Part shown: positions 5,396 through 24,770 of the stretch, piece after piece
How positions within the stretch are numbered: position 1 is the first letter of the stretch
How the letters are laid out: each line of letters starts with the position of its first letter
Source: a virus
DNA length: 24,770 nucleotides
IMG/VR virus record: IMGVR_UViG_3300046002_001758
Location: 1-24,770 of that record
Reading direction: 5' to 3' (one strand)
Made by a program: the position numbers and the translations under genes
Notes under the pieces: model-generated
The model's input: the letters and a program-made list of their open reading frames with translations, nothing else
What the model was told of the DNA's origin: nothing
Database searches by the model: none

Positions 5396-5809
5396 GTTCA
5401 CTGCGGCGGTAACGTCTTCTTTCTTCACCCCCGATATAATGCGGATCTCCTTTGCGACGATGGATACAATTCCAGCTGGCTGCATATCACGGACTTCTTC
5501 GATGGACATCTGTTCGTCGAAGGCGATACCGTAACGGCAGGTCATTACTTCAGCCTCGAAATCTGCTTTGGCTGATTCTGCAATGTCGAACGATACAACA
5601 GGCTGTCCACCATTCGCATAGGCTCTGCCCATATCGGTATCAATCTTAATCGCATTGTACGACAGGGCTTGGATCTCCGCCCACTGTCCTGACGTTAAAG
5701 AGCGGAGGGGTAGTTCCCCACCCAGCTCTTCAAACATTACAGACTTTACTGCATTCCTACCACGCAGGAGATTCTCCTTTGTGATGGCTGGCATCTTCTT
5801 TGCGCTCAT
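5378..5809 (-). CDS. Tail assembly chaperone (G-like), 143 aa
   Basis: A 143-residue protein between the major tail protein and the tape measure gene, the standard position of the lambda gpG-type tail assembly chaperone. It coats the tape measure protein and recruits tail tube subunits. The sequence is rich in short helices (MSAKKMPAITKENLLRGRN, LRSLTSGQWAEIQALS, VTAAVNTFRKK) with a GIVSIVAKEIRIISGV strand/helix near the end. The fragment MTCRYGIAFDEQMSIEEV resembles chaperone family members in which an acidic helix precedes the C-terminus. The start overlaps the major tail protein stop by ATGA, so the pair is probably translationally coupled. An adjacent +1-frame extension provides a longer product, which supports the assignment more than sequence similarity does. 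Confidence 0.75.
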   Translation of the reverse strand: MSAKKMPAITKENLLRGRNAVKSVMFEELGGELPLRSLTSGQWAEIQALSYNAIKIDTDMGRAYANGGQPVVSFDIAESAKADFEAEVMTCRYGIAFDEQMSIEEVRDMQPAGIVSIVAKEIRIISGVKKEDVTAAVNTFRKK

Positions 5810-7083
5810 ACGGCAGTCATCTCATCTTCGAGGTTGCTGATCGTTACGAGGATATCGGTTGCAACGGCGGATGTGCTGTTAAGGACAACGCCCTGCTTGA
5901 GCATCGCCGTTCCCGAGATGTTCTGGACGATGATATCCTTACCAGACGACTGGGTTTTAACCCCGGTAAGCAGACCCCTTGGGATCTGGATGTTGATGTT
6001 ACCATACTGTCCTGCATTCAGGTCGATGGTGAACGACGCCTCTGTTGAACCGTCGATTGTCGGTGCGTGAGCTGAACCCCATACTGCCTCAATCATCTCC
6101 ATCGACTCGAAGTAGACGTCAAGCGAGAAGGTCACATTCCTGTCACCTGCAACGGTACCACGGCCGAACCTCGACCCTACACCCATCTTGGTGGTAAGAG
6201 CGTTGGATACGTCGATACTGAACCCCTTTACAAGTGCAGACTTATCCACACCGTTGATCGCTACTACAGCGTCAGGGAATGAGAACGGGTATGCGGTTGG
6301 CAGTAACAGGGCTTCAACCGCCTGAATCGTTGCAGAACTATCCTTCTGGGCAACAACTCCAAGCGAGCAGTCGAGGAAACCGTTGGCTAACTTCAGACCG
6401 AAGGACTTCAGTTGCGACCCCTCGAACACATGCTCGAAGATATCTTTACCAATCCTGAACGTATACGACGGCAGCGAGTTTTCCGTGCTCCCGTATAGTT
6501 CGTGCAGGTTTGTTGCGTTCACAGTCGGAATCTTATCAATCTGGACTACAGGCGTTAACGCCGCGTGACCGAACTCCAATGCCCCGGTGAAGGTGAGCGT
6601 TGTCGTGCCTGACGTGGATGTTGCAACAGTCCTGTATTCAGTATCAGAGCCGTTCGGAGTCCCGATACGGATGTACGTTCCAGACGGGAAGGACGTTGAT
6701 GCAAGCGTCGTGAGGACAACGGATGTTGCGCCAACAATAGAGGCGTTCGCTGCCTTGATTGTGGTCGAATACCCACCGAATACATCGTTGGCGTTTGATG
6801 CAGACCTGTCGCCGCTTCCAACCGTGTAGACGTATCCGCCGAGTGCGGCAAGTGCCATCCACCCAAGCGTTGTGATCTCTCCTGCGAAGTTCACACCACC
6901 GGACGGTTCGTATGGCCCCGGGCGTCTGATAGTTGGAGAACGTCCGAGTCCACCTTTGAAAATCATCTCTGTGTTCGCAGGGCTGTCCATCGAAGACGAA
7001 GCCATGTCTACGTGCATGAGTGCGTTAACACCCGTGCCGTACGTGGCTTCTCTTCCGAATCCGAAATACCGAATCGTTGCCAT
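5806..7083 (-). CDS. Major tail (tube) protein, 425 aa
   Basis: It follows the tail terminator and precedes the chaperone, the usual place of the tail tube subunit. Beta-rich, with MATIRYFGFGREATYGT at the start, a feature of one tube-protein family (short beta strand then a Y-G-T-x-V turn), and FSLDVYFESMEMIEAVWGS in the C-terminal half. At about residues 105-185 it contains an extra Ser/Thr-rich beta module (YSTTIKAANAS ... SFPSGTYIRIGTPNGSDTEY ... FGHAALTPVVQIDKIP). A recognisably related module is also present in the major capsid protein of this virus. The length is larger than the roughly 150-350 residues of many tube proteins, partly because of this insertion. A ribosome site (AAGGGAG) precedes the ATG. 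Confidence 0.82.
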   Translation of the reverse strand: MATIRYFGFGREATYGTGVNALMHVDMASSSMDSPANTEMIFKGGLGRSPTIRRPGPYEPSGGVNFAGEITTLGWMALAALGGYVYTVGSGDRSASNANDVFGGYSTTIKAANASIVGATSVVLTTLASTSFPSGTYIRIGTPNGSDTEYRTVATSTSGTTTLTFTGALEFGHAALTPVVQIDKIPTVNATNLHELYGSTENSLPSYTFRIGKDIFEHVFEGSQLKSFGLKLANGFLDCSLGVVAQKDSSATIQAVEALLLPTAYPFSFPDAVVAINGVDKSALVKGFSIDVSNALTTKMGVGSRFGRGTVAGDRNVTFSLDVYFESMEMIEAVWGSAHAPTIDGSTEASFTIDLNAGQYGNINIQIPRGLLTGVKTQSSGKDIIVQNISGTAMLKQGVVLNSTSAVATDILVTISNLEDEMTAV

Positions 7084-8894: not shown

Positions 8895-10196
8895 CTATAC
8901 TGCTGGGACATCAATGTATGCGACAACTGCTCCATTCTCGTCTTCGTAGTTGCAATCGCCCTCGAAGGTCAGAACGAAGTCGGTGCGCCTGTCTGCTGCA
9001 AACCGCTGTGGTTCGATGGTCACATCGTGGAAGACTCCCCACACCATGTTGTCGGGGTTGGCGAGGATTGCACAACGTCCGTACGTGTGGCTTGTTCCGT
9101 TGAATGCAGCCGTGCGTTCGAGCATGGACACGTAGACGACGGGAATGCCCTTGAAGTATAGCGGTGCGTCGCCAGTTGTTGCAGAGTCACCAAGGACGGT
9201 GTTCCGTGCACGGAGGATGTCCCGGTATCCATCGTAGACTTCCCAGTTAACGTAGAACCTCCACTGCTTGGTGTTCTGTAAGTACTGCTTCGGAAGTGCA
9301 CCGAGCATCTCGTTGAGCATCGTGTCAACCCAGTTGCTGGCGTTCTTGTTGAAGTCAGGGATTGCGTCGATCTGGACAACGGGTGCGGGTGATGCGTGAG
9401 CATACTGGCACGGGGTCGTGAACGTGATCGAGGTTCCCGAGGTTGCGGAAGATGCAACGGTCATGAACTCTTCAGTTGCTGATCCGGCGGTGCCGATACG
9501 GACGAACTGTCCTGCGGTGAGTGCTGACGGGTCTGCGGTGGTGACGATTGTATACGCACCTGCGGAAACGTCGTTGCTGGACTTGACGGTTGTGGAGATG
9601 CCTGCTCCTGTGTCTGCACCCTTGGTTCCGTAAATCTTGTTTCCTGCGTTCTTGAGCCACCCGTTGGTGAGAGCGAGGAATGGGAAGTTTGCAGACGGGT
9701 AGAGCGACATATTGGAGAACAGTGCCCACTCTTCAAGGTCACGCCCTGCGGCTTCTCCAAAGAGGTCAATGAGCGTCTGCTCGAAGTTACCCTTCTCCAT
9801 GTTCCGGCGGAGGGTTGCATCACGAAGACCGCAGATTGCCTGTAACTCACGGGCAACGAGCTTGTTGGTGACGGTGGTCGGAGCGACGTAGTTCGAGTCG
9901 CTTAACGTGTTGTCGTAGTATCCGAGGCTGGTGTGGTTCTGGGCTGCTGACTGTGCCTGGGATGCGAGTGCACCGCCACCAGTGAGGATACGTCCGGAGA
10001 AGCTGATACGGTCGATATCGACAATCGGGTTGTCCATCTTCTTGAACCGTGCCTCTTTGAGGATGGTCGTCTGAATCTGGAGGGTGCGAATGAACGCATC
10101 ATACTTCTCCGGCTGGAGAACGGATGTGCCCATCGTGGTCGGGGTGACAATGCCCTTCAGGGCGGCGTCAAGGTTAGTTAAAAGGTCGTCGGTCAT
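8895..10196 (-). CDS. Major capsid protein (HK97-fold), 433 aa
   Basis: A 433-residue protein directly after the protease/scaffold gene, the position of the HK97-fold capsid subunit. Supporting segments are a helical N-arm (MTDDLLTNLDAALKGIV), the spine-helix-like region VTNKLVARELQAICGLRD..RNMEKGNFEQTLIDLFG, and the C-terminal domain with YFKGIPVVYVSML and YGRCAILANPDNMVWGVFHD. Residues about 200-278 form a Ser/Thr-rich beta insertion (STTVKSSNDVSAGAYTIVTT ... FVRIGTAGSATEEFMTV ... VVQIDAIPDF), related to one in the tail tube protein. A good ribosome site (AGGAAGG) sits 8-10 bases before the ATG. No protease-trimmed delta domain is obvious at the N-terminus, so scaffolding probably comes from the C-terminal part of the upstream gene. 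Confidence 0.88.
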   Translation of the reverse strand: MTDDLLTNLDAALKGIVTPTTMGTSVLQPEKYDAFIRTLQIQTTILKEARFKKMDNPIVDIDRISFSGRILTGGGALASQAQSAAQNHTSLGYYDNTLSDSNYVAPTTVTNKLVARELQAICGLRDATLRRNMEKGNFEQTLIDLFGEAAGRDLEEWALFSNMSLYPSANFPFLALTNGWLKNAGNKIYGTKGADTGAGISTTVKSSNDVSAGAYTIVTTADPSALTAGQFVRIGTAGSATEEFMTVASSATSGTSITFTTPCQYAHASPAPVVQIDAIPDFNKNASNWVDTMLNEMLGALPKQYLQNTKQWRFYVNWEVYDGYRDILRARNTVLGDSATTGDAPLYFKGIPVVYVSMLERTAAFNGTSHTYGRCAILANPDNMVWGVFHDVTIEPQRFAADRRTDFVLTFEGDCNYEDENGAVVAYIDVPAV

Positions 10197-10199
10197 GGT

Positions 10200-12464
10200 C
10201 TATGCCTTCCTGATCTTCCGGCCGAAGTCATCGCGGTCTGCATCGGCAGTCTTCGTCGGGGTCGGTTTGATAATGTCTGCAATCTGAATCGCCTTGCTTG
10301 CGGGTTTCCCTGCAAGGTTCTCGATTGACTTGGTCACCTGTTCGACAACTTCCGACTTTGCGGCAGTGATATCGGACTTGGTGGTTTCAATCGCTGACTT
10401 CAGCGTTGCAATTTCAGTGGTCAATGCGTCTTCTTTGGCTGTTACGTCAGCCATTTCTGCCTTTGCACTGACTGTCTGATCAAGTGCATCAAGCCTCTCG
10501 GTAAGAGGGTCAATAGCAGACTTCACCGCAGTTTCAATTACGGTTTTCAGTTCTTCGGGTGTCATGTTTTCAATCTCCTTCTCAGAAGTCAGTGCCTCGG
10601 CAGTATCCACTGCTTCATCGACCGTTGATTCTGATGATTTCTTCCCTGCATTCGCTACTTTCTGGTAGATTTCCTTTGGCGTAGGTTTTGCAGGCTTTGC
10701 AGCGGGCTTTCCCAAAAACTGTGCAGCCGCCTTCCGTTTCCGGTCTTCTGCATCTTTTGCTTCCTGCAATGCCTGTGCTCCGAAGTCCTTTGGTTTAGCG
10801 GGTGCCGGTTTAGCGGGAGCGGTTGTTGCAGGCTTTGCAGGCGTAGCCGTGGTGGGTTTAGCGGTTGTTGCAGGAGCCTTTGATAATGGTGCAGGTTTGG
10901 ATACCGGAACTGCCTGTCTTGCGGCGTTGTTCTTTGCCTGTGCTGCAGCCGCGTTAACGAGGGCTAATTGTCTACCTGCTGCCAGTCTTGCCTGTGCTGC
11001 GGCTTGGGCGGCTACAATAGCGGGGGTCACATGACCCGTCTTACCAGATCCCGGTCCACCTTTCTGTACGGCGTAGAACTGTTCCAGGGTGATCTGACCG
11101 ATTACATCCAGGCGTTCATCGACCGTTGATTCTGATGATTTCTTTCCGCGCAGTTCACGCTCCCAAGCTTGGGCGAACTTGTTGTAATGGGTTTCAACCG
11201 GGTCTAGGCGGAGAGAGGGGTGGTCCATCTGTCTAGACATTTCCGCTTTATACTCCGGGGTTAGGTCCAGTTTAAGACTGTTAATAGAGTTGATATACTG
11301 GGTCCCGTCAACATCAATCGCTACCCAATCGTAACGTCCAAATCCAACAACTGGCCCTGTTATTTTGGCAAATGAATTCTCTCCATCTTTGAGTCCCTGG
11401 TAGTCACCATGGCCAGTTACAATATCTCCACGCTTGATGCCCTGTGCTTGTGCTGCTTTGGATTGGGTTTCAGAATATCCATCTTTAACCAACTTCGGGT
11501 TCAAACTAGGGATACTGCCGCTGCCAGATCGGTCGGTAGTGTGACCACGAACACCAGACCCTTCGCCACCTTTCTGTACGGCGTAGAACTGTTCCAGGGC
11601 GATCTGACCGATTACATCCAGGCGTTCATCTTCGTCTGCCTTTCCAACGATCTGGTATTCGTCAAACGAGATGTCAGTAAGGATGTCTACTTCGGGAACC
11701 TTGTTGTCGTAGAGGACTTCTTCAGCCGTTAGGGTGATAGTATTCTGTTCTGCAACAGGTACCGGGGAATCTAGGGTAATTCGTTCTGATTCCGCCCTGG
11801 TGATCAGTCCCTTCAGCGAGTCATACATTCCACGGAGAACGGAAAATGTATCTTCAGAAAAGGATCTTCCGGCTTTCTCGGCAGGGACAATTACTTCCGG
11901 AACGTCAAGGTCTATATCCCCTTGTTTCGCAGCCTTCAATGCGAAGAACTTGGCTTTCGGGACGCAGGGTTCATCAACGAAACTGACGAACGGAGCATAC
12001 CAGTCTTCACCAAGGTCGGCAATGAGAGTCCTCTTGTAAGCAGCATTTCCCGCTGACTTGAGAGCCTTCGCACTGGTGCCAGCAACTCCCATTACGCTGT
12101 AACCCGTGAGTGCTCCGGACTTCACCCCTGCCCATGTAATAGCGTCGTTAACCTTGGACGCCATGACCCAGGAGCCCCTCGGGAGAATGACCTGCTTGCC
12201 CTTTACGGTTACGACCCTACGTTCGGGCAGGATGTAACTCTCCACCGGGGAAGCGACGTTCTTGAGCGTGTGCTGGATGTCAACATTACGATAAGACATC
12301 ATCCACTTGTGAGCCACACGTTCGATCTCTTTCTCGGTGAGTAATTTTTCACCTCGGGCAAAATCCCCGTCCGGCTCTCCAGGGACGAGTACGGCAGCAT
12401 ACGCAATTTGCTGCTCATCGTTTTTCATGACGATATATCCAGTCAGTTCTGTGCTATCAGCCAA
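10200..12464 (-). CDS. XkdF-type prohead protease fused to modular scaffold, ~754 aa
   Basis: The N-terminal third matches the XkdF-type phage serine protease family: AYAAVLVPGEPDG, a His in NVDIQHTL and Ser in GALTGYSVMG as candidate catalytic pair, ESYILPE and GSWVMASKVND. Two modules follow. Each starts DERLDVIGQIxLEQFYAVQK, then GGxGSG, and ends GKKSSESTV. The modules have different middles: one compact (RGDIVTGHGDYQGLKDGENS), one Ala/Lys/Pro low complexity. A coiled-coil C-terminus (about the last 140 residues, LTEEL-like helices such as VIETAVKSAIDPLTERLDAL) looks like a scaffold. Start uncertain: I chose TTG at 12464 because GGGGGTGG lies 4 bases upstream. Alternatives are GTG 12509 and ATG 12503, both inside the 81-bp array, and ATG 12428. 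Fused protease-scaffold is common in phages. A prohead protease usually trims head proteins and may process the linkers elsewhere in this window. Confidence 0.85.
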   Translation of the reverse strand: MADSTELTGYIVMKNDEQQIAYAAVLVPGEPDGDFARGEKLLTEKEIERVAHKWMMSYRNVDIQHTLKNVASPVESYILPERRVVTVKGKQVILPRGSWVMASKVNDAITWAGVKSGALTGYSVMGVAGTSAKALKSAGNAAYKRTLIADLGEDWYAPFVSFVDEPCVPKAKFFALKAAKQGDIDLDVPEVIVPAEKAGRSFSEDTFSVLRGMYDSLKGLITRAESERITLDSPVPVAEQNTITLTAEEVLYDNKVPEVDILTDISFDEYQIVGKADEDERLDVIGQIALEQFYAVQKGGEGSGVRGHTTDRSGSGSIPSLNPKLVKDGYSETQSKAAQAQGIKRGDIVTGHGDYQGLKDGENSFAKITGPVVGFGRYDWVAIDVDGTQYINSINSLKLDLTPEYKAEMSRQMDHPSLRLDPVETHYNKFAQAWERELRGKKSSESTVDERLDVIGQITLEQFYAVQKGGPGSGKTGHVTPAIVAAQAAAQARLAAGRQLALVNAAAAQAKNNAARQAVPVSKPAPLSKAPATTAKPTTATPAKPATTAPAKPAPAKPKDFGAQALQEAKDAEDRKRKAAAQFLGKPAAKPAKPTPKEIYQKVANAGKKSSESTVDEAVDTAEALTSEKEIENMTPEELKTVIETAVKSAIDPLTERLDALDQTVSAKAEMADVTAKEDALTTEIATLKSAIETTKSDITAAKSEVVEQVTKSIENLAGKPASKAIQIADIIKPTPTKTADADRDDFGRKIRKA
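10614..10643. repeat. 30-bp direct repeat, copy at end of module 2
   Basis: This 30-bp stretch is identical to 11115-11144, an offset of 501 bp (167 codons). It encodes the GKKSSESTVDE boundary at the end of the second module in the protease/scaffold gene. The copy at 11115-11144 marks the end of the first module. The identity is at DNA level, beyond what conservation of the peptide would require. Confidence 0.85.
11056..11120. repeat. 65-bp direct repeat, start of module 2
   Basis: This copy matches 11566-11630 at 64 of 65 positions, an offset of 510 bp (170 codons). It encodes DERLDVIGQITLEQFYAVQK and the first residues of the GG-x-GSG linker. The duplicated DNA flanks a non-homologous middle segment, which is the layout expected after cassette duplication followed by replacement of the middle. 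Confidence 0.88.
11566..11630. repeat. 65-bp direct repeat, start of module 1
   Basis: Partner of 11056-11120 (64/65 identical). It encodes DERLDVIGQIALEQFYAVQK plus GGEGSG at the start of the first module of the protease/scaffold gene. The module between this repeat and 11115 carries a compact domain with RGDIVTGHGDYQG and a WVAIDVDG strand, unlike the Ala/Pro-rich second module. Confidence 0.88.
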
Positions 12465-12477
12465 GGTTCCACCCCCA

Positions 12478-13128
12478 CGGTAGACTACTAGTGGTGATAA
12501 CATTGCCACTGTGCCAATATAGCACGTTCATGGCTAGAACTATTGAAAATCCAACGGTTCTACAGACTACTAGCGGTGATGCTGTTACAACCGATCTGGT
12601 ATAGCCAGTTCGTGGTAGTGCCAATAGTTTTTAGGATAAACTACAGACTTCTGGATACGAGTCCCTGGCAATGGGTCAGATATAGTGGCAACGACGGAGT
12701 ATCCGTTGTTTTAAAATTATCTGTAATCCAATAGTGCGGGACCCGTTACAATCGTGCCAATACAGCAAGTCTGGTATAGGGACTATCGTTTGGTACTAAG
12801 TTCTACATTCCTCTGGAGGAATCCTTACCACGACTGTAACCATATACGGGTTCCACGCTCTAGCCTATTGGTAATTCCGTAGGTCTACATTCCATCGGGT
12901 ACGAGTCCGTTACAACTGGAGCAATATATCTGGATGCGTGAGAAGATACCATACGTCAAAGGATTCTACAGACCTCTATAGTCAATTCCGTTACAACCGT
13001 GCCAGTATAGCGATATCTATTACGATTCTACAGTAGTTCAAAAAATTCTACAGACGGCGAAGACGGGACAGTTCGGCAGTGTCGATATTGACCATTACTA
13101 CCATGAACGAAAAAAGAACGACTGGTCG
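12478..13128. repeat. Degenerate tandem array, ~81-bp period, about 8 units
   Basis: Units begin near 12478, 12560, 12641, 12721, 12803, 12885, 12966 and 13048, so spacings are 82, 81, 80, 82, 82, 81 and 82. Each unit starts close to TTCTACAGAC (variants CTACATTC, CTGTAATC). The conserved half continues with GTTACAAC and GTGCCAATATAGC in units 1, 4 and 7 best. The other half is far more variable. Spacing is not a multiple of 3 and stops occur in all frames, so the array is not coding. Copies share about half to two thirds of positions by eye. Unit 1 touches possible upstream starts of the protease gene. The array occupies most of the only gene-free stretch in the window. Its function is unknown. 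Confidence 0.72.
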
Positions 13129-13274
13129 ATGGAAAATCAATGGTTTTCCATATAAACTATAGATTACTCTTGGTTACGGTGGGTAGATAGTATGTATTCG
13201 AGGTCGATAGGCCCTGTATGTTCGTTGAAAGCCTCGGTTTTACAGTCCGGTTTCGCCTGAATCTAAAGGATTGA
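13129..13274. other. Non-coding interval between array and terminator
   Basis: About 146 bases with no open frame that fits the neighbouring genes. It holds a short inverted repeat at 13131-13149 (GGAAAA and TTTTCC around a 7-base loop) and an AT-rich TATA-like element on the minus strand. It could contain the promoter for the protease-capsid-tail transcription unit. Nothing else stands out. Confidence 0.5.
13148..13156 (-). promoter_or_regulatory. TATA-like element (tentative promoter)
   Basis: Minus-strand TTTATATGG in an AT-rich stretch, placed after the terminator of the effector operon and before the array and the protease gene. It resembles an archaeal TATA box. No bacterial -35 element is at the right distance. 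A transcript starting here would have a leader of over 600 bases including the array. This is weak evidence. Confidence 0.25.
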
Positions 13275-13307
13275 CCTTTAAAATAAAAGAAACCCAAATT
13301 GGGGTTG
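13275..13307 (-). terminator. Rho-independent-type terminator after effector operon
   Basis: AACCC at 13291-13295 pairs with GGGTT at 13302-13306. On the minus strand the hairpin is followed by TCTTTTATTTT. It lies about 35 bases downstream of the stop of the 78-residue gene, the last gene of the effector operon. The plus-strand side also has a T-run (GGATTTTTGG), so it could work in both directions. It separates the effector operon from the protease-capsid-tail operon. Confidence 0.65.
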
Positions 13308-13341
13308 GATTTTTGGTATTTAAAGACCGTCGATTGTCGAA

Positions 13342-13578
13342 TCAGTAAATCACGTTGGGGTCGAACGGAGGCGGCGGGACCAGTACCTTCTCAACCAACC
13401 AGCCGTCTTCGGTTGCCATGTGTGCCAGTTCGCCCGTCAGGTCTGGCGTGTAGCCGTCTATCTGGTCTGCACAATACAGGGTGTTCATCATGCTCTCAAT
13501 CGTCTTGTCGTCGCAGACCCAGATGCCGTTTTCCACGGTCGCGGTGAGTCCTCCGTTCGTCAGTAAAATTTTTGTCAT
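13342..13578 (-). CDS. Small last gene of effector operon, 78 aa
   Basis: A 78-residue acidic protein starting MTKILLTNGGLTATVENG and ending PPPPFDPNVIY. Its ATG overlaps the TGA of the 933-residue polyprotein (ATGA), so it is translated together with it, and the terminator follows at once. A short beta meander (GLTATVENGIWVCDDKTIES) precedes a helix (SMMNTLYCADQIDGY). No family is recognised. A small protein tied to the end of an effector operon could be an immunity factor, a chaperone or a packaging aid, but nothing in the sequence decides this. Confidence 0.7.
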   Translation of the reverse strand: MTKILLTNGGLTATVENGIWVCDDKTIESMMNTLYCADQIDGYTPDLTGELAHMATEDGWLVEKVLVPPPPFDPNVIY

Positions 13579-16376
13579 TTCTTTCCGCCCTGCACGGCAT
13601 TGATAATAAACTTGAAGTATTCTGGGTCGTCTTTGGCAAACTTAATGGGGTCTCTGTATAACGACTCCAACCCCATACTGATGATCTCCGTGTTCTTCTG
13701 ACCCGTATACACCCTGCCAGCATAGGCTTCCTTGAAGTTGTCTTTAAGGGTGACTTCGCTGGAGTCATAGCCCCTCGACGGGTATATGGATTTCAGCGTT
13801 ACGGGTTTCTCTCCAACCGTACGGCTATTTCTAAAATCAATGGCTGCTTGCTGGACACCGGTTGCCTGACTCTCTATTGCATGTCCAAGTTCGTGAACCA
13901 CTACGTCGGGTCCATCATTTGGTGCAATCTTTATCACATCTCCATTTACGGATGCGCTGGCTCTATAACCCTTTTCCTCTCTGTCTATGGATACATCTGT
14001 CTGTCCCTGCAAGTCCGTTGATACCATCCTTCCGATAAATTCATTTGCCGTTTTAACAGATTTTGTTTTACTAGAATCTCCACTAACCGTGAGCGAACTT
14101 GTCCCAGGTGGGTTTATGTAAAGACTTTCTATTACTTCGGTCTTCAGTGCGTGTATCGCGTCGTTGTTCTGTTTGAGTGCTGGGTTAATTTCAGCGAGTA
14201 GTTTGGACTGTTCTGCATGGAGTTCATTAAGACGGGCTTGTTCTGGCGACGCCCGCTTTTCTTCAACGGTGGTATATTTTGCATCACGCTCACCCATTAA
14301 TTCCGCTATTTGGTTGTGGGATGCATCCAAGGATTTGCATATTCTATTACCGTTGGCTTTCAATTCGCTAGTCTTGTCCTCCCATTCTTTTATCTTCTCA
14401 AGGGCAATATCTCCCCGGTTGACAACGTCTGTGGTTTCTTTTTCGTCTGGGGTTTCTGGAACCACACTTTGTTTTTCTTGGGTCTCAACTGGGTCTTTTT
14501 CACGCGGGGTCTTATCTCCGAGTTCTTCATTGAGAACCTCCTTTAAATTCCAATTCATGTCATACTTGCCACCATGGGCGGTCGCTATTTGGTCAACTGT
14601 TACAACCCCATCTTCAACGGAATATAGGAACACCCCGTTCAGTTTCCCATCCCTTGGCCCAAACGTACTACTACTTACCCCAACGTGTTTTCCATCGGTA
14701 CCATTTGCTATTTCAAGGGCGGTTTTCTTATCGTTTGGTGACAACCAACTAGATTTTCTAATCTGGAGGGACAGTTCCCTATAACCACTTGGGGTTACAG
14801 TTTTCCAGTCGCTACCAAATCGGTTCACGTTAAGATTTCCACCACTCGGGGCAGACCCGCCGAGGTGCCCCTGTACGCTTTCGTGGTTGAAGTTGCCTGA
14901 ACCTTCGCCCCCCTTCATAGTAGACATCCACTTCTTGAATGCCGCCTTCATTGCACCAGATAGGAGGATCTTCCCCGTCCCATCCCTGAACGTAAACGTC
15001 TTGTCGGTGCTGAACTGTTCCGGCGTAGACCCGTAGGTTTCTGCGAACTTGCCGAACTGCCGCTGGCCCAGGTCTAATACCTTCTGCAGTCTGGTGTTCT
15101 CCTTGTTCTCTGTCAGTGCGATATCGAAGTGGTCGTTGTTCCAGTCAATCGAATCAATCGTCCCGCCGAGCATCCCGAGTGTAAACTTACCCGTAACGGG
15201 TGATACTTCGTCTACCGCTTGGTTGTACCGTTCGGCAACACCCTTCGGTAGGTTTGCAGAGGCGATGTTGTCCTTCATCTGGGACTTGGCGTCGGCAAGG
15301 GTGATCTCCTTTGCATGGAACGATTCAAGGACGTCGATGTTATCTGATACGTTCCTGAACATCGGGGGTAACTTATCGGCGGCGAACAGGGCGGTGTTAT
15401 CGGCTACACGGATTGCAGAACCAGACGGGTCTTCTACCCAGTCGATACTCGTTGCATCGTGCGTCCTGATGTTGTTGGAGATTTCCCTGCCGGCGTCCTT
15501 TCCTAATGCGGCTTCTACCATCGGGCGGGCGTTCTCATCGAAGTTCTGCTGTGACCATCTCGGATGCCCTTCGTCCAGCCCTGACATTGACGGGTCAGTC
15601 ATGTAGCCAGTATCGTGGTATATCTGGGCGATGTAAATCTCTGCTGCCTTCTCCGGAGTCAGGTCTTCGTTCGGGTTCTTCAGCTCCATCTCCATCGAGC
15701 GGTCAATGTTCCCACTGATATGGTGAATCCCGTGATCTCCCAACTGTCTGGTCTGTGCTTCCATCTCCTGTGCAAGCAGGGTATCGGTAGCGTCAACGGT
15801 GAGGGCACGGACTTGATCTTCCGACATTCCCGTTCCACGCAGCGATTCCTCGTAGTTCGTAGCGACCCGATCTACCATCTCTGCCGACCGGGGTGTGAGG
15901 TTATCTTCACTTACCGACCAGATACGGGACTCAACGTCTGCACGGATATCGCCTGTGTTTTCCCATGCTTTGGCGTCTTTGAGCAGTACATCCCTTCTGG
16001 CAACAACGGACTCCTTTGCATTCGCCATCCGGTCCCGTTCTGAAACTGATAACTTTGACCACTCTTCACGGCGTGTGCCAGGGTCTTTCGCCATCCATTC
16101 CTGTCGGTTGAATGCAGAGCCGGTTCCATCCCCGGGCGCACTTCCACCCAGATGTCCCGGTACACTTTCGTGCCCGTGGTTCCCAGATCCTGCTCCGCCC
16201 TTCATCGTGGACGCTTCTGCATTGATAATCTGTTGCTGTAGCGTTTTCGGGATGTCGTCAAAGGTCTGGCAAAATTGAACTGCGTCCACAAATGCGTATC
16301 GTTCTTCCAGGGTCTTTTCCGAGAACGTACGGGAGTTCACTACATTAGCAAGTCTTCTACTCAACTCTGGTTCCAT
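13575..16376 (-). CDS. Polyprotein: HD phosphohydrolase, unassigned domain, coiled coil, HExxH peptidase; 933 aa
   Basis: Order seen: an N-terminal leader (residues 1-57, FCQTFDDIPKTLQQQI) shared with the ART protein ending at 18227; linker 1 (59-81); an HD-domain-like region (about 200-340) with HGIHHISGN, IYHDTGY (His254-Asp255), HPRW, RTHDAT and RVADNTALF; linker 2 (488-510); an unassigned region (515-620, GVFLYSVEDGVVTVDQIATA, perhaps GNAT-like but lacking the usual Gly motif); a coiled coil (655-755); and a zinc peptidase (755-930) with HELGH at 828-832, TEIISMGLE at 896-904 and DPEYF. The last part matches a head-associated peptidase family often joined to MuF proteins. HD domains hydrolyse phosphate esters, including nucleotides and cyclic oligonucleotides; the substrate here is unknown. 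A strong ribosome site (GGAGGAGG) precedes the ATG, which follows the upstream TAA directly. Confidence 0.85.
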   Translation of the reverse strand: MEPELSRRLANVVNSRTFSEKTLEERYAFVDAVQFCQTFDDIPKTLQQQIINAEASTMKGGAGSGNHGHESVPGHLGGSAPGDGTGSAFNRQEWMAKDPGTRREEWSKLSVSERDRMANAKESVVARRDVLLKDAKAWENTGDIRADVESRIWSVSEDNLTPRSAEMVDRVATNYEESLRGTGMSEDQVRALTVDATDTLLAQEMEAQTRQLGDHGIHHISGNIDRSMEMELKNPNEDLTPEKAAEIYIAQIYHDTGYMTDPSMSGLDEGHPRWSQQNFDENARPMVEAALGKDAGREISNNIRTHDATSIDWVEDPSGSAIRVADNTALFAADKLPPMFRNVSDNIDVLESFHAKEITLADAKSQMKDNIASANLPKGVAERYNQAVDEVSPVTGKFTLGMLGGTIDSIDWNNDHFDIALTENKENTRLQKVLDLGQRQFGKFAETYGSTPEQFSTDKTFTFRDGTGKILLSGAMKAAFKKWMSTMKGGEGSGNFNHESVQGHLGGSAPSGGNLNVNRFGSDWKTVTPSGYRELSLQIRKSSWLSPNDKKTALEIANGTDGKHVGVSSSTFGPRDGKLNGVFLYSVEDGVVTVDQIATAHGGKYDMNWNLKEVLNEELGDKTPREKDPVETQEKQSVVPETPDEKETTDVVNRGDIALEKIKEWEDKTSELKANGNRICKSLDASHNQIAELMGERDAKYTTVEEKRASPEQARLNELHAEQSKLLAEINPALKQNNDAIHALKTEVIESLYINPPGTSSLTVSGDSSKTKSVKTANEFIGRMVSTDLQGQTDVSIDREEKGYRASASVNGDVIKIAPNDGPDVVVHELGHAIESQATGVQQAAIDFRNSRTVGEKPVTLKSIYPSRGYDSSEVTLKDNFKEAYAGRVYTGQKNTEIISMGLESLYRDPIKFAKDDPEYFKFIINAVQGGKK
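14847..14915 (-). repeat. Inter-domain linker, HD polyprotein copy 2
   Basis: It encodes KGGEGSGNFNHESVQGHLGG followed by SAP (residues 488-510), between the HD region and the unassigned domain. Gly/His/Ser-rich, no predicted fold. It is a copy of the linker found in each polyprotein of this window. Confidence 0.8.
16134..16202 (-). repeat. Inter-domain linker, HD polyprotein copy 1
   Basis: It encodes KGGAGSGNHGHESVPGHLGG followed by SAP (residues 59-81), between the leader peptide and the HD region. A hybrid of the NHGH and ESVPGHxGG versions, which suggests recombination between copies. Confidence 0.8.
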
Positions 16377-18230
16377 TTACTTTCCTCCTCCGTAGCCAGT
16401 GGGTGTTTTCACTATCGTTCGTTCTGGGATACATAAGGCTCCACGGTTAAGAACTACCACATACTCACTCCCCGTTACATGGATTGCATCGTACCCCATG
16501 TAGGCAGCGAAAACCCCATCGTCCTGCACCCCCTCCCGAATATTATAATATGCGGCTTGGCGAGCACTGGATCCTGATATGGTCTGGGCGGTTGACTGAC
16601 TTCTCCCTTCTCGTTCAGTAAGGTCTATCTTGGCGTCAAACGCTGTATGTAAATCCCGTAGATCCCGATCCTTGATTACCCGGGAATCTGGTTTCAAGAC
16701 CGCTTCCATTACGTTATTATCGTTTTTCCCCCCAAATGCAAATGCCGTGCGATATGCTATACCCGGGGTGTTTGGGACGGTTGCAACGTCTTCCTTCGGG
16801 TTTGCTGCAAAATACGTACCATTTCCAGATAGTCCCGACCCTGCAAAGTAATTTCCATTTCTGAACTGGTCGATGTACTCGGTCCCGGGGATGTTACCTT
16901 CCGATGGGATTGCTTCACCTGGGGTGTAATGTACACCCCACCCATCGTTTACCCCACGGTACATAATGCCATAGGGACTTTCTTCTACCAGTTTGTCAAA
17001 GTCTTCATCTGGTAAAACAGACGGGTGTGCATCGAATCCCCGTTCTTTTACAACCACTGCCAGAACTGCATCTTCCCTTCTATCCAGGTGGTATTCTTCA
17101 AACAGGCGTCGTCGTTCATTCCGTACTCCATTTTCAGAATGGATCAGCCGTTGGATTATCGGGGATGTCTTGTAGTCCATCTTTTCGTGGTTTCCCGGTG
17201 TTGCAGGTATTCCACCATCACCCGGGGCTGACCCGCCACGGATTCCAAGGCGTCCTGCATGCCCGTGGTTCCCAGAGTTTGCATTGCCCTTGGTTACCGG
17301 CCCCGTCTTAATGACGATAACTTCTGACTCTGCGGAATACCCTCGGAACACGCCAATACCACTTAGAACCGTGTATCCTTTCCCTGGCAGATCCTTTACC
17401 GGCATGTAGGTATTTGGGTAGAGTCGTTCACCTGGGTTTGTGATAGCCGACGTTTCTGCTCCTCGTTCAAAGGTCGTGAACGATAGGACGTCCCGTTGCA
17501 GATCCTTTGGTGACAGAGAATCGTTGTAGGGTTTTGAGTCTGGTGATGCCCGATACAGGGTAAGTCCATTGTTTACCTTATCTACGGCGTCGTCATACTT
17601 ACCCTGCCAGTAAAATGCATATTCTTCCGGTTCGGTAATCGGGTTGTAATACCAGTCTTCTACACTCGATAACTGCATCCCTCTGGAAACCAGTTCCCTG
17701 TCGGTATCCATGTTCATTTTATCGGGGGCAATCTCGTTAAGGGATGCAACGACGGACTTTGCGTCTTTATCCCAAATCTCCTGCTGTTTTTCGATTACTG
17801 CCTGTTCTATCTGTGCATACTCACGGAGGACTTGCCCCTGTTCGCTGTCGGGGTCGTTCCAATATTCCGTTAAATTTTTGTCGCCTGCTATCTGGTTGCT
17901 CTGGTCGTGACTATGTTGCGTAAATGCGTGTTCTACATCATTTACAGACTTATCCGAATACCCCTTCGACTTCAGGTAATCTTTTACTTCCTGTTTCTTT
18001 ACTCCCTCCGACGAAGATTTAATTTCCCCAATGGAAGGAATCTGCGACGCGATACTGGGTGCAGAGCCACCGCGATGACCGATTACACTTTCGTGGTTGA
18101 AGTTTCCAGAGCCGGCTCCACCTTTCTTGGCTGACTTGGTTATACGGGCGATCAGGCGTTTCTCTTCATCGGTGAACGGTTGGTTGCCACCCATCACGTA
18201 TTCGCCAGTAAACTTTGCGTCTGTCGTCAT
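16377..18230 (-). CDS. Polyprotein with two ADP-ribosyltransferase-like domains, 617 aa
   Basis: Start chosen at the ATG at 18230 because it overlaps the upstream TGA (ATGA) and has GGTGA about 6 bases upstream. An earlier in-frame ATG lies inside the preceding gene. Residues 1-35 are a leader (MTTDAKFTGEYVMGGNQPFT), then linker 1. The first domain (about 60-312) has an Arg-Ser-Glu type ART layout: TLYRA (Arg227), LSFTTFERGA, and AESEVIV with a Glu-x-Glu pair (301/303). Linker 2 follows. The second domain (about 340-600) has MYRGV (Arg425), GNGTYFAA, VLKPDSRVI, YMGYDAIHV and YVVVLNRGALCI. It is a paralogue of the last domain of the MuF protein. ART enzymes transfer ADP-ribose from NAD to a target protein; the targets here are unknown. 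No membrane segment is visible. Confidence 0.8.
   Translation of the reverse strand: MTTDAKFTGEYVMGGNQPFTDEEKRLIARITKSAKKGGAGSGNFNHESVIGHRGGSAPSIASQIPSIGEIKSSSEGVKKQEVKDYLKSKGYSDKSVNDVEHAFTQHSHDQSNQIAGDKNLTEYWNDPDSEQGQVLREYAQIEQAVIEKQQEIWDKDAKSVVASLNEIAPDKMNMDTDRELVSRGMQLSSVEDWYYNPITEPEEYAFYWQGKYDDAVDKVNNGLTLYRASPDSKPYNDSLSPKDLQRDVLSFTTFERGAETSAITNPGERLYPNTYMPVKDLPGKGYTVLSGIGVFRGYSAESEVIVIKTGPVTKGNANSGNHGHAGRLGIRGGSAPGDGGIPATPGNHEKMDYKTSPIIQRLIHSENGVRNERRRLFEEYHLDRREDAVLAVVVKERGFDAHPSVLPDEDFDKLVEESPYGIMYRGVNDGWGVHYTPGEAIPSEGNIPGTEYIDQFRNGNYFAGSGLSGNGTYFAANPKEDVATVPNTPGIAYRTAFAFGGKNDNNVMEAVLKPDSRVIKDRDLRDLHTAFDAKIDLTEREGRSQSTAQTISGSSARQAAYYNIREGVQDDGVFAAYMGYDAIHVTGSEYVVVLNRGALCIPERTIVKTPTGYGGGK
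17223..17291 (-). repeat. Inter-domain linker, 617-aa protein copy 2
   Basis: It encodes KGNANSGNHGHAGRLGIRGG followed by SAP, between the two ART-like domains. It belongs to the NHGHAGRxGIRGG version of the linker. Confidence 0.78.
18057..18125 (-). repeat. Inter-domain linker, 617-aa protein copy 1
   Basis: It encodes KGGAGSGNFNHESVIGHRGG followed by SAP. It lies between the short leader and the first ART-like domain. Confidence 0.8.
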
Positions 18231-19888
18231 TTGCTCACCGGGATCATCGTTATGAAATGGGTGTTCGTGGTTATCCCAGTCCATGCCTTTGCCGATACGA
18301 CTTCTTTTCCAATAACTTTCATCGTCGTTCCTCTTGGTAGGAGGACTTCCGTCATTGCTCCTCCGTTGTAATACATTCCTTTAATCTTGCCGTCTGTGAG
18401 GACTCTTATAATAGTTCTCTCGGATTCTTTCGACGGTGGGTCGCCTTTCTTTTCGGCCCAGTTAATACTAAAAGCCTTGGCAATGGTCGGATCCAACGAG
18501 GTCGCTGCATATCCCATATCTGTACAGGTATCTCCAATATCCATTGCTGCAACAATCCGTCCATGTTCTGGTCCGACGCCTCTATACAAATCGACCCCCT
18601 CTGGAAGTGCCTCAACGTTATCGAATCCACCATCTATACTTGCAATAGTTGCATTAAACGCCCCGTTTTTCCAATCTCCTGTACGAGCAATATAAGTTGG
18701 ATCCCGCAGGAAACTCTGGGTATTACCATAAGTTCCTCCCGTGAACCATTCGCGGATGTCTGCATTGTGTTGCACCATCAACGCCGTGGTATGTGCCAGT
18801 CCAGATAGGTTTTTATCAATCTCGGTCTGATATGCGATTTCGCGCCCTCTACCATCTGTCCACGCCCACCCCATAGAGTCTTTCACTTTCTGGTCTATCC
18901 CAACTCCACCACCACTTGGTGCCGATCCACCGCGATGCCCCGGTACGCTTTCATGGTTGAAGTTTCCAGATCCTGCGCCACCCTTCTTTGCATACGACTT
19001 GTCAATTACAACTTCCCGTTCCATTGACCCATACGGAGACGCAATCGTTCTCCATGAGAACATTACTTCATCAGACGTTACGATGGTCGGTTTAATCTCT
19101 GCTCCTGTATTAACATTAGCCGTTGCACTAAAGGCTCCACCCTTTGATTCTGATACGGATAACATTCCACCGTGTGCAGATCCGGCACGGAACATCGTAG
19201 CCTCTTTCCCATTGGTCTTTTCGAATACCTCCTTCGATAGATCCTTTATGTACGTTGCGGCTTCCTGGTGTTTCTCTCCCAGTTCTCCATCCAGTGCTTT
19301 TTTGAAGTATTCTGTTGGCAGTGTGTTACCATGCCCACTTTCCTGTTCGTAATAGCTGGTCAGTCTTGTTCCAACGAACATCCTCTGGTTTACATCCTTC
19401 GGTATCCATTCAGGCCGGTCTTTCTTCATCCATGGTTCGGGAACTTCGTTGTATTTCTTCCATTCTTCCTGTCCGTCTATCCACCCAGACCAGTGCCGGA
19501 GTTCTTCCCCGAATCCCTTCTCATCAGCATAGGCAAGTGCATCAGTTCTAATTCCATTCCGTGCAGCATCAATATCCTTTTCGATAGACGAGGTTATTCC
19601 TGCATGTGCAGAAACCATATCGCTAATCTGTGATCCATCAGACGGGGCACTTCCTCCTCTGATGCCAATACGGCCTGCGTGTCCATGGTTGCCTGACTCG
19701 GCGGTACCGTACTTCTGTGCGGCCTCTGCTTTGATAATCTGTTGCTGTAGCGGTTTCGGTATGTCTTCGAAGGTCTGGCAAAACCGGACGGCGTCTATAA
19801 AGTCATAACGTGCAGAAATACCTTTCTCTATGAACAAATCGGAGTTCACTGCGAACGCAAGTCTATGACTCAACCCTGGTTGCATCAT
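18227..19888 (-). CDS. Polyprotein with two ADP-ribosyltransferase-like domains, 553 aa
   Basis: Start chosen at ATG 19888 because ATGA joins it to the stop of the MuF gene and GGGGAG lies 5 bases upstream. Residues 1-57 are the leader (MMQPGLSHRLAFAVN, then FCQTFEDIPKPLQQQI), homologous to the leader of the HD polyprotein. Linker 1 lies at 59-82, linker 2 at 302-324. Domain 1 (about 85-300) shows TMFRAGS (Arg234), GGAFSAT and MEREVVI with Glu-x-Glu at 290/292. Domain 2 (about 330-553) shows VDLYRGV (Arg436), MGYAATSLD (Thr/Ser 463-464) and AMTEVLLPRG (Glu514). In the latter the first Glu of the usual Glu-x-Glu pair is Met, so target preference may differ. Both domains look like arginine-type ART folds; activity is inferred from motifs only. 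Confidence 0.82.
   Translation of the reverse strand: MMQPGLSHRLAFAVNSDLFIEKGISARYDFIDAVRFCQTFEDIPKPLQQQIIKAEAAQKYGTAESGNHGHAGRIGIRGGSAPSDGSQISDMVSAHAGITSSIEKDIDAARNGIRTDALAYADEKGFGEELRHWSGWIDGQEEWKKYNEVPEPWMKKDRPEWIPKDVNQRMFVGTRLTSYYEQESGHGNTLPTEYFKKALDGELGEKHQEAATYIKDLSKEVFEKTNGKEATMFRAGSAHGGMLSVSESKGGAFSATANVNTGAEIKPTIVTSDEVMFSWRTIASPYGSMEREVVIDKSYAKKGGAGSGNFNHESVPGHRGGSAPSGGGVGIDQKVKDSMGWAWTDGRGREIAYQTEIDKNLSGLAHTTALMVQHNADIREWFTGGTYGNTQSFLRDPTYIARTGDWKNGAFNATIASIDGGFDNVEALPEGVDLYRGVGPEHGRIVAAMDIGDTCTDMGYAATSLDPTIAKAFSINWAEKKGDPPSKESERTIIRVLTDGKIKGMYYNGGAMTEVLLPRGTTMKVIGKEVVSAKAWTGITTNTHFITMIPVSK
18917..18985 (-). repeat. Inter-domain linker, 553-aa protein copy 2
   Basis: It encodes KGGAGSGNFNHESVPGHRGG followed by SAP, between the two ART-like domains, right after the catalytic-Glu strand of the first. 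Confidence 0.8.
19643..19714 (-). repeat. Inter-domain linker, 553-aa protein copy 1
   Basis: It encodes KYGTAESGNHGHAGRIGIRG followed by GSAP. A 61-bp stretch here (19662-19722) is identical to 20678-20738 in the MuF gene, including synonymous positions. Confidence 0.85.
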
Positions 19889-22800
19889 GTACTCCCCTTT
19901 ACTGGAACCGGGAATTTCCGTTCTGGGATACAAATCGCCCCACGGTTCAACAAAACGACGAAACTTTCGTCCTCAATATAAATGGCGTCGTACCCCATGT
20001 ACGTTGCATACCGACCTGGGTCAGTCATTATATATTCCATCATGTGAGCCTGTTCATAATATTCTGGGTTGTCCATTTTATCTAGGAGTTTTCCTTCGAG
20101 TTCCCTGTGTTCTACAGTCAGGGTTTTAAAGTTCACTACCTTTGCATCCGGTTTTAAAACGGTTTCCATGATACGATCTTTATCTGGGTCCAACCCCGAG
20201 AATGCTCTTGCAACTTCGTATGCTATTTCTGGGGTCCACCCCTCGGATCCAGGCAATTGATTGTTACTTTCATCCGTTGCTGCTGCGAAATACGTCCCAT
20301 CGCCACTAACTCCAATTCCCGTATGCAGTTTTCCATTCTTAAATTCGTCTACGTATTCTGGATCCTTTTCTCCACGGTATAATCTACCATAGGGACTATC
20401 TTTTACCAATTGATCAAACTGTTCATCTGATACCCTACTTGGCAATTCTGCGAATCCCTGTTCTTCCTGCATCGCGTGTAAAACAGGATCTCCCTGCTGC
20501 ATATCGATCATGTTTCTCGATTGCTCACGGATTAGTAGATTCCTCTCGTCTACCCTATTGCAATTCGGTTGGAGGAACCGCTGGAATATCGGGGATGTCT
20601 TGTAGTCCATCTTGCTATGGTTACCGGGAATCTTTAGGGATGACCGTCCACCATCTCCCGGCGCACTTCCACCTCTAATGCCAATACGGCCTGCGTGTCC
20701 ATGGTTGCCTGACTCGGCGGTACCGTACTTCTGTGCGGACTTTTCAGAATCTACTTGGACGATATCGCCTTCGTAGAACTGTTGCATATCGTCTGGAGCC
20801 TTGAATCCCCACGGCATAAGGTAGGGAACGGTTGTGCATCGGCAATTAATCCACTCGCCTATATCCCCATCGGTATCGCCGGGGTAGAGCAACCCATTGT
20901 TGAACGTGTCGCCAACTGCAACAATCTGTCCGTGCATGGCAACGTGGTCGGCCGAGCCGTTTGTGCCGTCCCTTACCCGTTCGTCTTCAGCCGTCCACCA
21001 CTGCTGATACTCCACTTCCATTTCTTTGAACTGTTCGAAGGCTCCCTGGTTCTGGGCACCGTTGATCTCCGTGCGGGCAATCAGGTCTGCACGTTCGGGA
21101 CTGATTCCTTCGAATACCTTTTCCAGCATTCGTGCGACGTCGTACGTGCCTTTCTCTTCCACGAATCCTTTTGCCAGGGTACTCATTACATCCCCGGTAA
21201 TCCTGTCCATCGTATCGTTCGAGGCGATGAAAGACTTCGCCAGCATCCTGATAAGAATCTCTGCAATGGGGTTCTTCAGTAATGCCTTCTTTGCGGCTAT
21301 CCGTTTCGAGTGCTTTATCCCTGCGTAGAAAGCCGTCTTCCTCTTGTTCTGGATGATCCTGACGAAAGCAGGGCGGTTCTTTTCCAGTATCTTTTTCAGA
21401 ATCGGAGCGATTTCTTCCGGTGTGTTTGTCGATTGGACTTTGCTACGGGTTTCTTTTTCGATGGACTTAAACAGTTTCCGTAACTGTGCCGAGAGGTTCC
21501 TGACGATCTTCAGTTCAGGGACTGCAGCCTTACTTGCCGCGAGAATCAGTTCTATATCGTAGGCAAGGTCTAGTGCATTAGACTCTTTCGTGGCCCCATC
21601 CAACCGTGCCTGTACCCTGGCGTTGGATTTTGCCCGGGCGGTATCCCTTTCAGCGACTTCTGCCCTGTAAGCGGCGTCAATCTCATCGTTGGTTAATGGG
21701 GAAACGATTTCGTTTCCGTCATCTGATGACCCTTTGTATTGGTATGAGGGACCAAGAGTTTCTATTGCTTCACTATCGACGTAGACTTCCCCGCCACCTG
21801 TCATTGCAGATCCCAACAGTTGTGACGGGGCCATTCTGACGCTGTGGAGCATATCAGTTTTCGATGCGTCTGCGGCTACTCGGTCTGACGATGAAAACGA
21901 CATGAACGGGTAACTCATCCCACCACCACGGTAGTACGTCTGCGGGGTATCTAGCCAGTCTTTAAACGTCCCGTCAGTTCTGCCTGCCTGAACATCACTG
22001 GAATATGTTTCATACAGGGTCATTTCACGTACCCCATCGCTTTTCGTGAGCCTATCGTAGATTTCCTGCTTTGCGTCCTGCTTTGCACCACGGGTCCAGT
22101 CTTGGTTGGCAGAGTTAAAAACCCGCCATTCTCCTTCAATCCCATAGACTTTTGCCTGTTCGGTTGCATCACCTGCACCATCCGCATCCAAATCGTCAAC
22201 AAATCCGCGGTTGCTTGTAGGGGGTTCGTAATAATCTGAAACGGTTGCCGTGGTCGCTGGAGCTGACCCTCCACGATGCCCCGGTACGCTTTCGTGGTTG
22301 AAGTTGCCAGAGCCGGCTCCACCCTTGGTTGCCCTTTCTATTCCCTGTGAAGCGGGGTCGGCATTCCAATCATACGTTTTAACAAGACCGGAATAGGACT
22401 TTACAAATTCTTCGGCACGCTCTTCGTCGGTACCAACGACCGAATGTCCAAATTCATGAATAAAGTTCCTATTCGTGTTCTCTTCGAGGTCTGGGTTATA
22501 TATCGACGTGTAGATCGTTCTGGTTTCTGGAACGTACGCACCCATTGCATAATCAGTGTCATCAAACCCTAGATCGTTTAACCGTGATACAACATCTTCC
22601 GGGTTATCGTAGACTTCAATTCTTTCGCAGGCAGATGCTTCTATCTCCCGTTTCGGAATGGTCTGAAGCGTGTGGGCAATTATATCAGACGACGTTGTTA
22701 TCGTGGTCTCTGTGTTTCGGTATATGGCGAATGTCCTGCCTCCAACTTTAATGTCAGTCTGATTGAACGGCCCACCTGACGGAGCAGAGCCACCCAACTG

Positions 22801-22905
22801 ACCGATTACCCCGGCGTGACCCCAGTTACCAGACGATGCAGTTCCATATTTCTGCACAATCAGGTCTATATCGGCAATCAGTTCGTACGCTTCGTCTGCA
22901 TTCAT
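19885..22905 (-). CDS. MuF head-morphogenesis polyprotein with peptidase and two ART-like domains, 1006 aa
   Basis: Domain order: leader (1-18); linker 1 (19-42); HExxH peptidase-like domain (43-192, IHEFGHSVVGTDEERAEEF, His150, Glu151, His154); linker 2 (194-216); ART-like domain (about 217-400, YYRGGG Arg326, FMSFSSSDRVA, GGGEVYV Glu373); a basic helical region (about 410-600); the MuF domain (about 590-697: ARTEINGAQNQGAF, WWTAEDERVRDG, HVAMHGQIVAVGDTF, WINCRC); linker 3 (726-749); and a second ART-like domain (about 755-993, RLYRG Arg844, GDGTYFAA, VLKPDAKVV, YDAIYI, VVLLNRGAICI). MuF proteins sit at the portal and are needed for head assembly, so this protein could tether effectors to the head. 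The MuF core is normally near the N-terminus or alone; here modules are attached at both ends. The start has ATGA overlap with the 215-residue gene. Confidence 0.88.
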   Translation of the reverse strand: MNADEAYELIADIDLIVQKYGTASSGNWGHAGVIGQLGGSAPSGGPFNQTDIKVGGRTFAIYRNTETTITTSSDIIAHTLQTIPKREIEASACERIEVYDNPEDVVSRLNDLGFDDTDYAMGAYVPETRTIYTSIYNPDLEENTNRNFIHEFGHSVVGTDEERAEEFVKSYSGLVKTYDWNADPASQGIERATKGGAGSGNFNHESVPGHRGGSAPATTATVSDYYEPPTSNRGFVDDLDADGAGDATEQAKVYGIEGEWRVFNSANQDWTRGAKQDAKQEIYDRLTKSDGVREMTLYETYSSDVQAGRTDGTFKDWLDTPQTYYRGGGMSYPFMSFSSSDRVAADASKTDMLHSVRMAPSQLLGSAMTGGGEVYVDSEAIETLGPSYQYKGSSDDGNEIVSPLTNDEIDAAYRAEVAERDTARAKSNARVQARLDGATKESNALDLAYDIELILAASKAAVPELKIVRNLSAQLRKLFKSIEKETRSKVQSTNTPEEIAPILKKILEKNRPAFVRIIQNKRKTAFYAGIKHSKRIAAKKALLKNPIAEILIRMLAKSFIASNDTMDRITGDVMSTLAKGFVEEKGTYDVARMLEKVFEGISPERADLIARTEINGAQNQGAFEQFKEMEVEYQQWWTAEDERVRDGTNGSADHVAMHGQIVAVGDTFNNGLLYPGDTDGDIGEWINCRCTTVPYLMPWGFKAPDDMQQFYEGDIVQVDSEKSAQKYGTAESGNHGHAGRIGIRGGSAPGDGGRSSLKIPGNHSKMDYKTSPIFQRFLQPNCNRVDERNLLIREQSRNMIDMQQGDPVLHAMQEEQGFAELPSRVSDEQFDQLVKDSPYGRLYRGEKDPEYVDEFKNGKLHTGIGVSGDGTYFAAATDESNNQLPGSEGWTPEIAYEVARAFSGLDPDKDRIMETVLKPDAKVVNFKTLTVEHRELEGKLLDKMDNPEYYEQAHMMEYIMTDPGRYATYMGYDAIYIEDESFVVLLNRGAICIPERKFPVPVKGST
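20659..20730 (-). repeat. Inter-domain linker, MuF protein copy 3
   Basis: It encodes KYGTAESGNHGHAGRIGIRG followed by GSAP, between MuF core and C-terminal ART-like domain. DNA 20678-20738 is identical to 19662-19722. Confidence 0.85.
22258..22326 (-). repeat. Inter-domain linker, MuF protein copy 2
   Basis: It encodes KGGAGSGNFNHESVPGHRGG followed by SAP, between the peptidase-like and first ART-like domain. The same residue sequence occurs at 18917-18985. Confidence 0.82.
22780..22851 (-). repeat. Inter-domain linker, MuF protein copy 1
   Basis: It encodes KYGTASSGNWGHAGVIGQLG followed by GSAP, between the 18-residue leader and the peptidase-like domain. It is the most divergent of the nine copies in the effector operon. 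Confidence 0.75.
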
Positions 22906-23549: not shown

Positions 23550-23550
23550 T

Positions 23551-23685
23551 TCAGTATCCCCCGTGGTCTTTGATGAATCCCATCAGGAGTTCTATAAAAA
23601 CATAGGCAAAGAGAATCCCAAGTCCGAATAGCATCATCACTTCGGGGATTCTTTCAGTTGGGGGTATCAGGTTGAAAAACGGCAT
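23551..23685 (-). CDS. Small membrane protein, 44 aa
   Basis: A short open frame fills the interval between the phosphoesterase and the 215-residue gene. It begins MPFFNLIPPTERIPEVMMLF and ends MGFIKDHGGY. A single hydrophobic helix of about 20 residues (MLFGLGILFAYVFIELLMGF, broken by one Glu) is flanked by a polar N-terminus and a basic-then-polar C-terminus, as in a one-pass membrane protein. Its start overlaps the phosphoesterase end by 32 bases and its stop lies one base before the next ATG, the tight packing of its neighbours. AAGGATG just before the start is a weak ribosome site. An internal ATG pair (23635 region) would give a 28-residue version. Holin-like or an inner-membrane factor are possible; the length is too short to decide. 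Confidence 0.55.
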   Translation of the reverse strand: MPFFNLIPPTERIPEVMMLFGLGILFAYVFIELLMGFIKDHGGY

Positions 23686-24739: not shown

Positions 24740-24770
24740 CAGCCCCATCCTCTGCAAACTCAACCGCATC
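24723..24770 (-). CDS. End of an upstream gene (partial)
   Basis: A frame open to the window edge ends DAVEFAEDGADVGEE before a TGA at 24725..24723. It overlaps the phosphoesterase start by 17 bases, in line with the packing of this operon. An acidic C-terminus and the location just upstream of MuF-related genes would fit a portal or terminase large subunit, but only 15 residues are visible, so the product cannot be named. Confidence 0.45.
   Translation of the reverse strand, partial: DAVEFAEDGADVGEE

Follow-up and report, generated by a model that had tools for sequence, protein, structure and literature searches.

A degenerate 81-bp tandem array upstream of the head operon of an uncultured virus related to methanogen siphoviruses: a candidate row of protein-binding sites

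The DNA in front of the prohead protease gene of an uncultured tailed virus carries seven head-to-tail units of about 81 bp, in each of which a conserved core alternates with a filler of free sequence and nearly constant length. The array is real and unusual, and it is a feature of a single virus. We tentatively favour, with slightly less than even confidence, the idea that it serves the head operon as a repeated operator, i.e. a row of putative protein-binding sites controlling these genes. Little is known about how tailed viruses that infect methanogenic archaea time the expression of their capsid genes. A late-gene control region would offer a compact piece of DNA with which the controlling protein could be fished out, while a relict would be a warning not to read function into regular spacing by itself.

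Seven units in the largest intergenic gap

The window, i.e. the whole stretch of DNA analysed here, spans a complete virus record of IMG/VR. It is linear, measures 24770 bases, is a fragment, and has all its clear genes on the minus strand (Table 1). Its largest intergenic gap (12462-13341) measures 880 bp, the runner-up 183 bp. A sequence-only reading had proposed that a degenerate array of about eight units fills most of this gap, and had named shuffled sequence as the control for its period. Within the interval proposed for the array, autocorrelation summed over three adjacent lags (81-82 region) reached 0.902, a value above each of 300 dinucleotide shuffles (0.834 ± 0.015, maximum 0.875). 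Units were obtained by cutting the gap at the TCTACAGA box. Pairwise identity among units 1-7 was 38-59% with offset 0 always best, compared with 31% for random window pairs (99.9th percentile 45%). A sequence-only unit model matched exactly these seven units with scores of 40-52 bits, and no other part of the window scored above 5 bits. As this model had been trained on the units themselves, leave-one-out HMMs were added, in which the omitted unit was the top match in six of seven cases (E 2.6e-10 to 4.5e-3). The exception was unit 5 (12802), which came second best with E 0.12. Tandem Repeats Finder missed the array, whose units are too diverged. Together, the autocorrelation, the pairwise identities and the leave-one-out HMMs confirm the array.

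Table 1. Features of the window in the direction of transcription.
Feature	Position	Strand	Remark
Metallophosphoesterase	24769-23654	minus	earliest window gene in the direction of transcription
215-aa protein		minus	between metallophosphoesterase and MuF protein
MuF protein	22905-19885	minus	
Three further large proteins	19933-13575	minus	after MuF in the direction of transcription
78-aa gene	13342..13578	minus	final gene of the upstream operon
Terminator-like hairpin AACCCCAATTTGGGTT with T-rich tail	13291..13306	minus	just after the 78-aa gene; weak
TATA-box-like TAGTTTATATGG (archaeal)	13149..13160	minus	T[TA]TATA[TA] match
Dyad ATGGAAAA-N7-TTTTCCAT (ATGGAAAATCAATGGTTTTCCAT)	13129..13152	.	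adjoins the TATA-like box, between array and upstream terminator; seen by eye
Orphan box TTCTACAGAC	13046..13055	+	in array register; remainder of an eighth unit undetectable
Degenerate tandem array	12477..13046	.	seven head-to-tail units, each 80-82 bp long
Unit 7	12965..13046	+	additional TTCTACAG box at about 13024
Unit 6	12884..12964	+	
Unit 5	12802..12883	+	weakest unit
Unit 4	12720..12801	+	
Unit 3	12640..12719	+	
Unit 2	12559..12639	+	best score of all units
Unit 1	12477..12558	+	core to about 12524
Prohead protease, XkdF-like (Peptidase_S78_2)	10200..12461	minus	first gene of the head operon
Major capsid protein, XkdG-like	8895..10196	minus	directly after the protease
Connector and tail genes		minus	after the capsid gene in the direction of transcription
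Tail tube protein (PF18906)	5806-7083	minus	
Tape-measure-like protein	5255-939	minus	

Successive unit starts lie 82, 81, 80, 82, 82 and 81 bp apart. The regular spacing described earlier therefore stands, but the count of about eight does not: the eighth shrinks to the 10-bp orphan box, which the unit model failed to pick up even with filters off. Likewise, the motif reported on the minus strand is present, but merely as the complement of the same head-to-tail units. The array does lie between two operons, both of them on the minus strand; it ends at 13046, and nothing array-like was detected at 13056-13128, which had been counted as part of it.

Constraint on core and spacing

The conserved core of about 48 bp runs from TCTACAGAC through GTTACAAC to CCAATATAGC and holds three boxes, TCTACAGA, GTTACAAC and ATATAGC, with centre distances of 25 and about 13 bp. 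The remaining 33 bp or so are near background identity, while the length of this filler stays at 32-34 bp. Column identity is 0.54 in the first 50 columns versus 0.34 in the rest, and nine columns are invariant. This contrast bears out the proposed alternation of a conserved and a variable half. When star-tree evolution was simulated with one rate for every column, none of 3000 runs reached it, and nine invariant columns were rare under the same model (p 0.018); the simulation assumes a star tree and a fixed alignment, and repeat-specific histories could widen the null. Moreover, the first 68 columns are free of gaps in all seven units despite 170 of 476 letters differing from the majority. 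Judged by typical indel rates in prokaryotic noncoding DNA, several indels would probably have collected over such divergence without selection.

We considered whether the array might be a relict satellite, an old tandem duplication in an inter-module gap that is decaying and has no present function. Duplicated copies of about 48 bp parted by unrelated filler would then account for the contrast between core and variable part. Such an origin would agree with the strong divergence of the units, with the absence of the array from all relatives searched and with the tendency of insertions to collect at module boundaries. Decay at a uniform rate, however, does not produce the observed contrast and rarely leaves as many invariant columns, nor does it explain why the random half keeps its length or why so many mismatches came without an indel. 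We regard a relict as rather unlikely.

Column permutations were used to look for a coding signal in all six frames. Signals were equally weak in three of them, spread over both strands (z 1.9-2.1), so none stood out. No single open frame runs through the array, since stops break every frame, and the unit spacing changes the reading frame in four of the six intervals. An intact tandem-repeat protein gene was rejected on account of these stops and frame shifts. A decayed gene for a protein of 27-residue repeats (81 = 3 x 27), broken by frameshifts and stops, would explain why the spacing clusters at 81. Codon-position conservation of the core in a minus-strand frame (0.43/0.57/0.64) leans to period three (permutation p 0.066), and plus-strand frame 2 contains 4 stops against 11 expected (p 0.038), with a 63-aa ORF on units 2-3. 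Yet the minus frame that fits has two stops in the majority consensus itself, the second codon position is the least conserved one in the plus frame, and the equally weak frames on two strands favour none. A decayed repeat gene is thus unlikely.

RNAalifold found zero consensus pairs and no covariation among the units on either strand, and searches with Rfam and for tRNAs gave no match. Folding energies were ordinary (z -0.53 for the minus strand, -1.90 for the plus strand). The covariance analysis and minus-strand folding proposed for each unit thus lent no support to an RNA element, and a structured RNA array was rejected. The same results speak against a long 5' leader RNA built of repeated domains (acting as attenuator, antitermination element or sponge) that would be read toward the protease gene, starting at the TATA-like box (13156). 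No other intergenic site on the minus strand matches T[TA]TATA[TA], and the position of this box just upstream of the array would suit a leader, which we nevertheless consider very unlikely.

The suggestion that core and spacing are under selection, as in a row of protein-binding sites, survived these tests: the units show rate heterogeneity, ungapped columns, no RNA covariation and no consistent coding frame. Its helical argument did not. For B-DNA the figure of about eight turns does not hold, as the mean of 81.3 bp corresponds to about 7.75 turns. Rough in-phase placement would need an unusual 10.2 bp/turn. At 10.5 bp/turn each site is offset by roughly a quarter turn from the one before, so an arrangement on the same face is not supported. 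The boxes are asymmetric in at least some units.

The virus, its relatives and the flanks of the array

Another IMG/VR record, IMGVR_UViG_3300046006_002718 (L036), is 100% identical over 5225 bases to window positions 19544-24768 and prolongs the virus upstream by the portal and large terminase genes. The best annotated matches of the terminase, portal and protease are archaeal viruses: the terminase matches vir524 of Methanomicrobiales (48.5%), the portal Drs3 of Methanobacterium (39%), and the protease psiM100 and psiM2 (35-41%). By these matches the virus is a tailed, uncultured relative of methanogen siphoviruses, and they point to a methanogen as its probable host.

Two observations concern the proteins themselves. 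The major capsid protein (residues about 170-300) and the PF18906 tail tube protein (residues about 65-199) have a domain in common (35% identity over 142 aa, E 2e-11). It is also found in the capsid protein of the nearest relative, L001 (L001:1129-2412), and is absent from three more distant capsid relatives; one inserted domain in both capsid and tail tube would be unusual. Furthermore, a linker of about 22 aa (GGAGSGNFNHESVPGHRGGSAP / GTAESGNHGHAGRIGIRGGSAP) occurs in eight copies across four consecutive large proteins on the minus strand (window 13575-22905; motif starts at 22845, 22323, 20724, 19708, 18982, 18122, 16199 and 14912), with two shorter forms in the protease (11570 and 11060). 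The linker connects cassettes such as MuF and ADP-ribosyltransferase-like domains, and one 83-bp linker-coding stretch is 95% identical between two genes. The linker-joined domains look like a modular cassette system of head-borne proteins.

The gene order bears on the possibility that the array is an origin, a partition centromere or a packaging site, i.e. an iteron-like array for a replication, ParB-like or terminase protein. Such sites are typically regular noncoding direct repeats, and with the genome incomplete the partner genes may lie outside the window. Within it, no replication or partition gene was recognised, and ordinary iterons are shorter and much less degenerate than these repeats. 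Pac sites are usually found in or near the small terminase gene. Here the portal and large terminase genes map beyond window base 24768, on its upstream side, which puts them over 11 kb from the array and disfavours the pac site considered in the sequence-only reading. Overall, a role in replication, partition or packaging appears doubtful.

The array is bracketed by a terminator-like hairpin upstream and by the prohead protease-capsid operon downstream. Evidence for the terminator is weak, as 2 such sites were found in 1.7 kb compared with 1.7 in shuffles. The TATA-like TAGTTTATATGG is a candidate promoter from which a transcript would pass through the array; each unit also holds a weak TATA-like ATATAG. 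The adjoining dyad is a possible operator. No sigma-70-like promoter was found within the array. On the minus strand, TTGGCACG...TAAC resembles a sigma-54 site by eye, but was dropped because its GG/GC pair varies across units. The protease probably starts at TTG 12461 after GGGGGTGG, a choice favoured by comparison with the start MSELTG in L001, while the alternative GTG 12509 would put the protease N-terminus over unit 1.

Alignment-based scans turned up related capsid proteins at 28 viral and two genome loci, and the unit model found no unit in the loci and records of these relatives. Where the DNA before the protease is sequenced, a short gap (at most about 210 bp), small genes or a MuF gene occupy that position. 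Three loci with long gaps ahead of the protease gene showed no period; they contain a MuF-like coding stretch (L025 and L031) or small ORFs (L022). The informative comparison is missing because L001, whose capsid protein is 64% identical, begins 14 bases before the protease start codon. Among the relatives with this locus sequenced, none carried the similar array expected at the same place. A blastn search of the array region against phages gave no match. Two IMG/VR motif scans were empty and one returned 19 scattered single matches, about chance level, in which the unit model found nothing. No similar array was found in the literature. Judged by these searches, the array is known from this virus only.

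A candidate row of binding sites and its parallels

We prefer a row of binding sites because it accounts together for the kept core, the kept spacing, the free filler and the position of the array; the missing RNA structure and the lack of a single reading frame fit as well. The array would be a cis-acting DNA element in which seven sites of about 48 bp are held 80-82 bp apart just upstream of the prohead protease-capsid-tail operon. A viral or host DNA-binding protein would occupy the sites, probably cooperatively, as has been proposed for archaeal-virus regulators that extend along series of degenerate sites. The bound protein would set the timing or the level of capsid-operon transcription, in either direction of control. 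We infer protein binding, the head operon as target and the effect on transcription alike. Counterpoints are that no known relative preserves the array, that the spacing does not amount to whole helical turns, that the boxes are not symmetric in every unit, that no regulator gene was recognised among the genes of the window (the genome being incomplete), and that the candidate promoters of the head operon amount to one TATA-like box upstream of the array. That the array represents an undescribed class of viral regulatory DNA, with seven composite 48-bp sites at a selected spacing as the late-gene control centre of a methanogen virus, is a bolder proposal that we consider improbable.

Among known systems, CRISPR arrays likewise alternate a kept part with an unrelated part of fixed length. 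Here, however, the repeat parts are only about 54% identical, there is no palindromic repeat, and no cas-like gene was found among the window genes examined with Pfam and PHROGs. A CRISPR array, with its near-identical repeats and cas genes, was therefore rejected. Iteron arrays of replication origins are also noncoding head-to-tail direct repeats. Iterons are about 20 bp long and well conserved, whereas the present units measure 81 bp, are about 47% identical and are flanked by head genes with no replication gene nearby. An iteron origin was rejected, as unit size, divergence and flanks do not fit. The tandem repeats of Borgs, archaeal extrachromosomal elements, are intergenic as well, but perfect, recent and A-rich (PMC9879509), in contrast to the strongly diverged array, which is not A-rich.

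As a working parallel, without assigning the array to their class, we would take the operators of the archaeal-virus ribbon-helix-helix (RHH) regulators AvtR, SvtR and F55. Theirs are short and lie near promoters of early or regulator genes, while the array ahead of the head operon repeats a 48-bp core at intervals of 81 bp for 570 bp. Several copies of a specific intergenic site, as expected of RHH operators, are present (seven units with three boxes each). The likeness lies in intergenic sites of falling quality, for which cooperative coating has been proposed: AvtR is reported to protect a stretch of about 100 nt as it extends from sites of high affinity to degenerate ones (PMC5569661).
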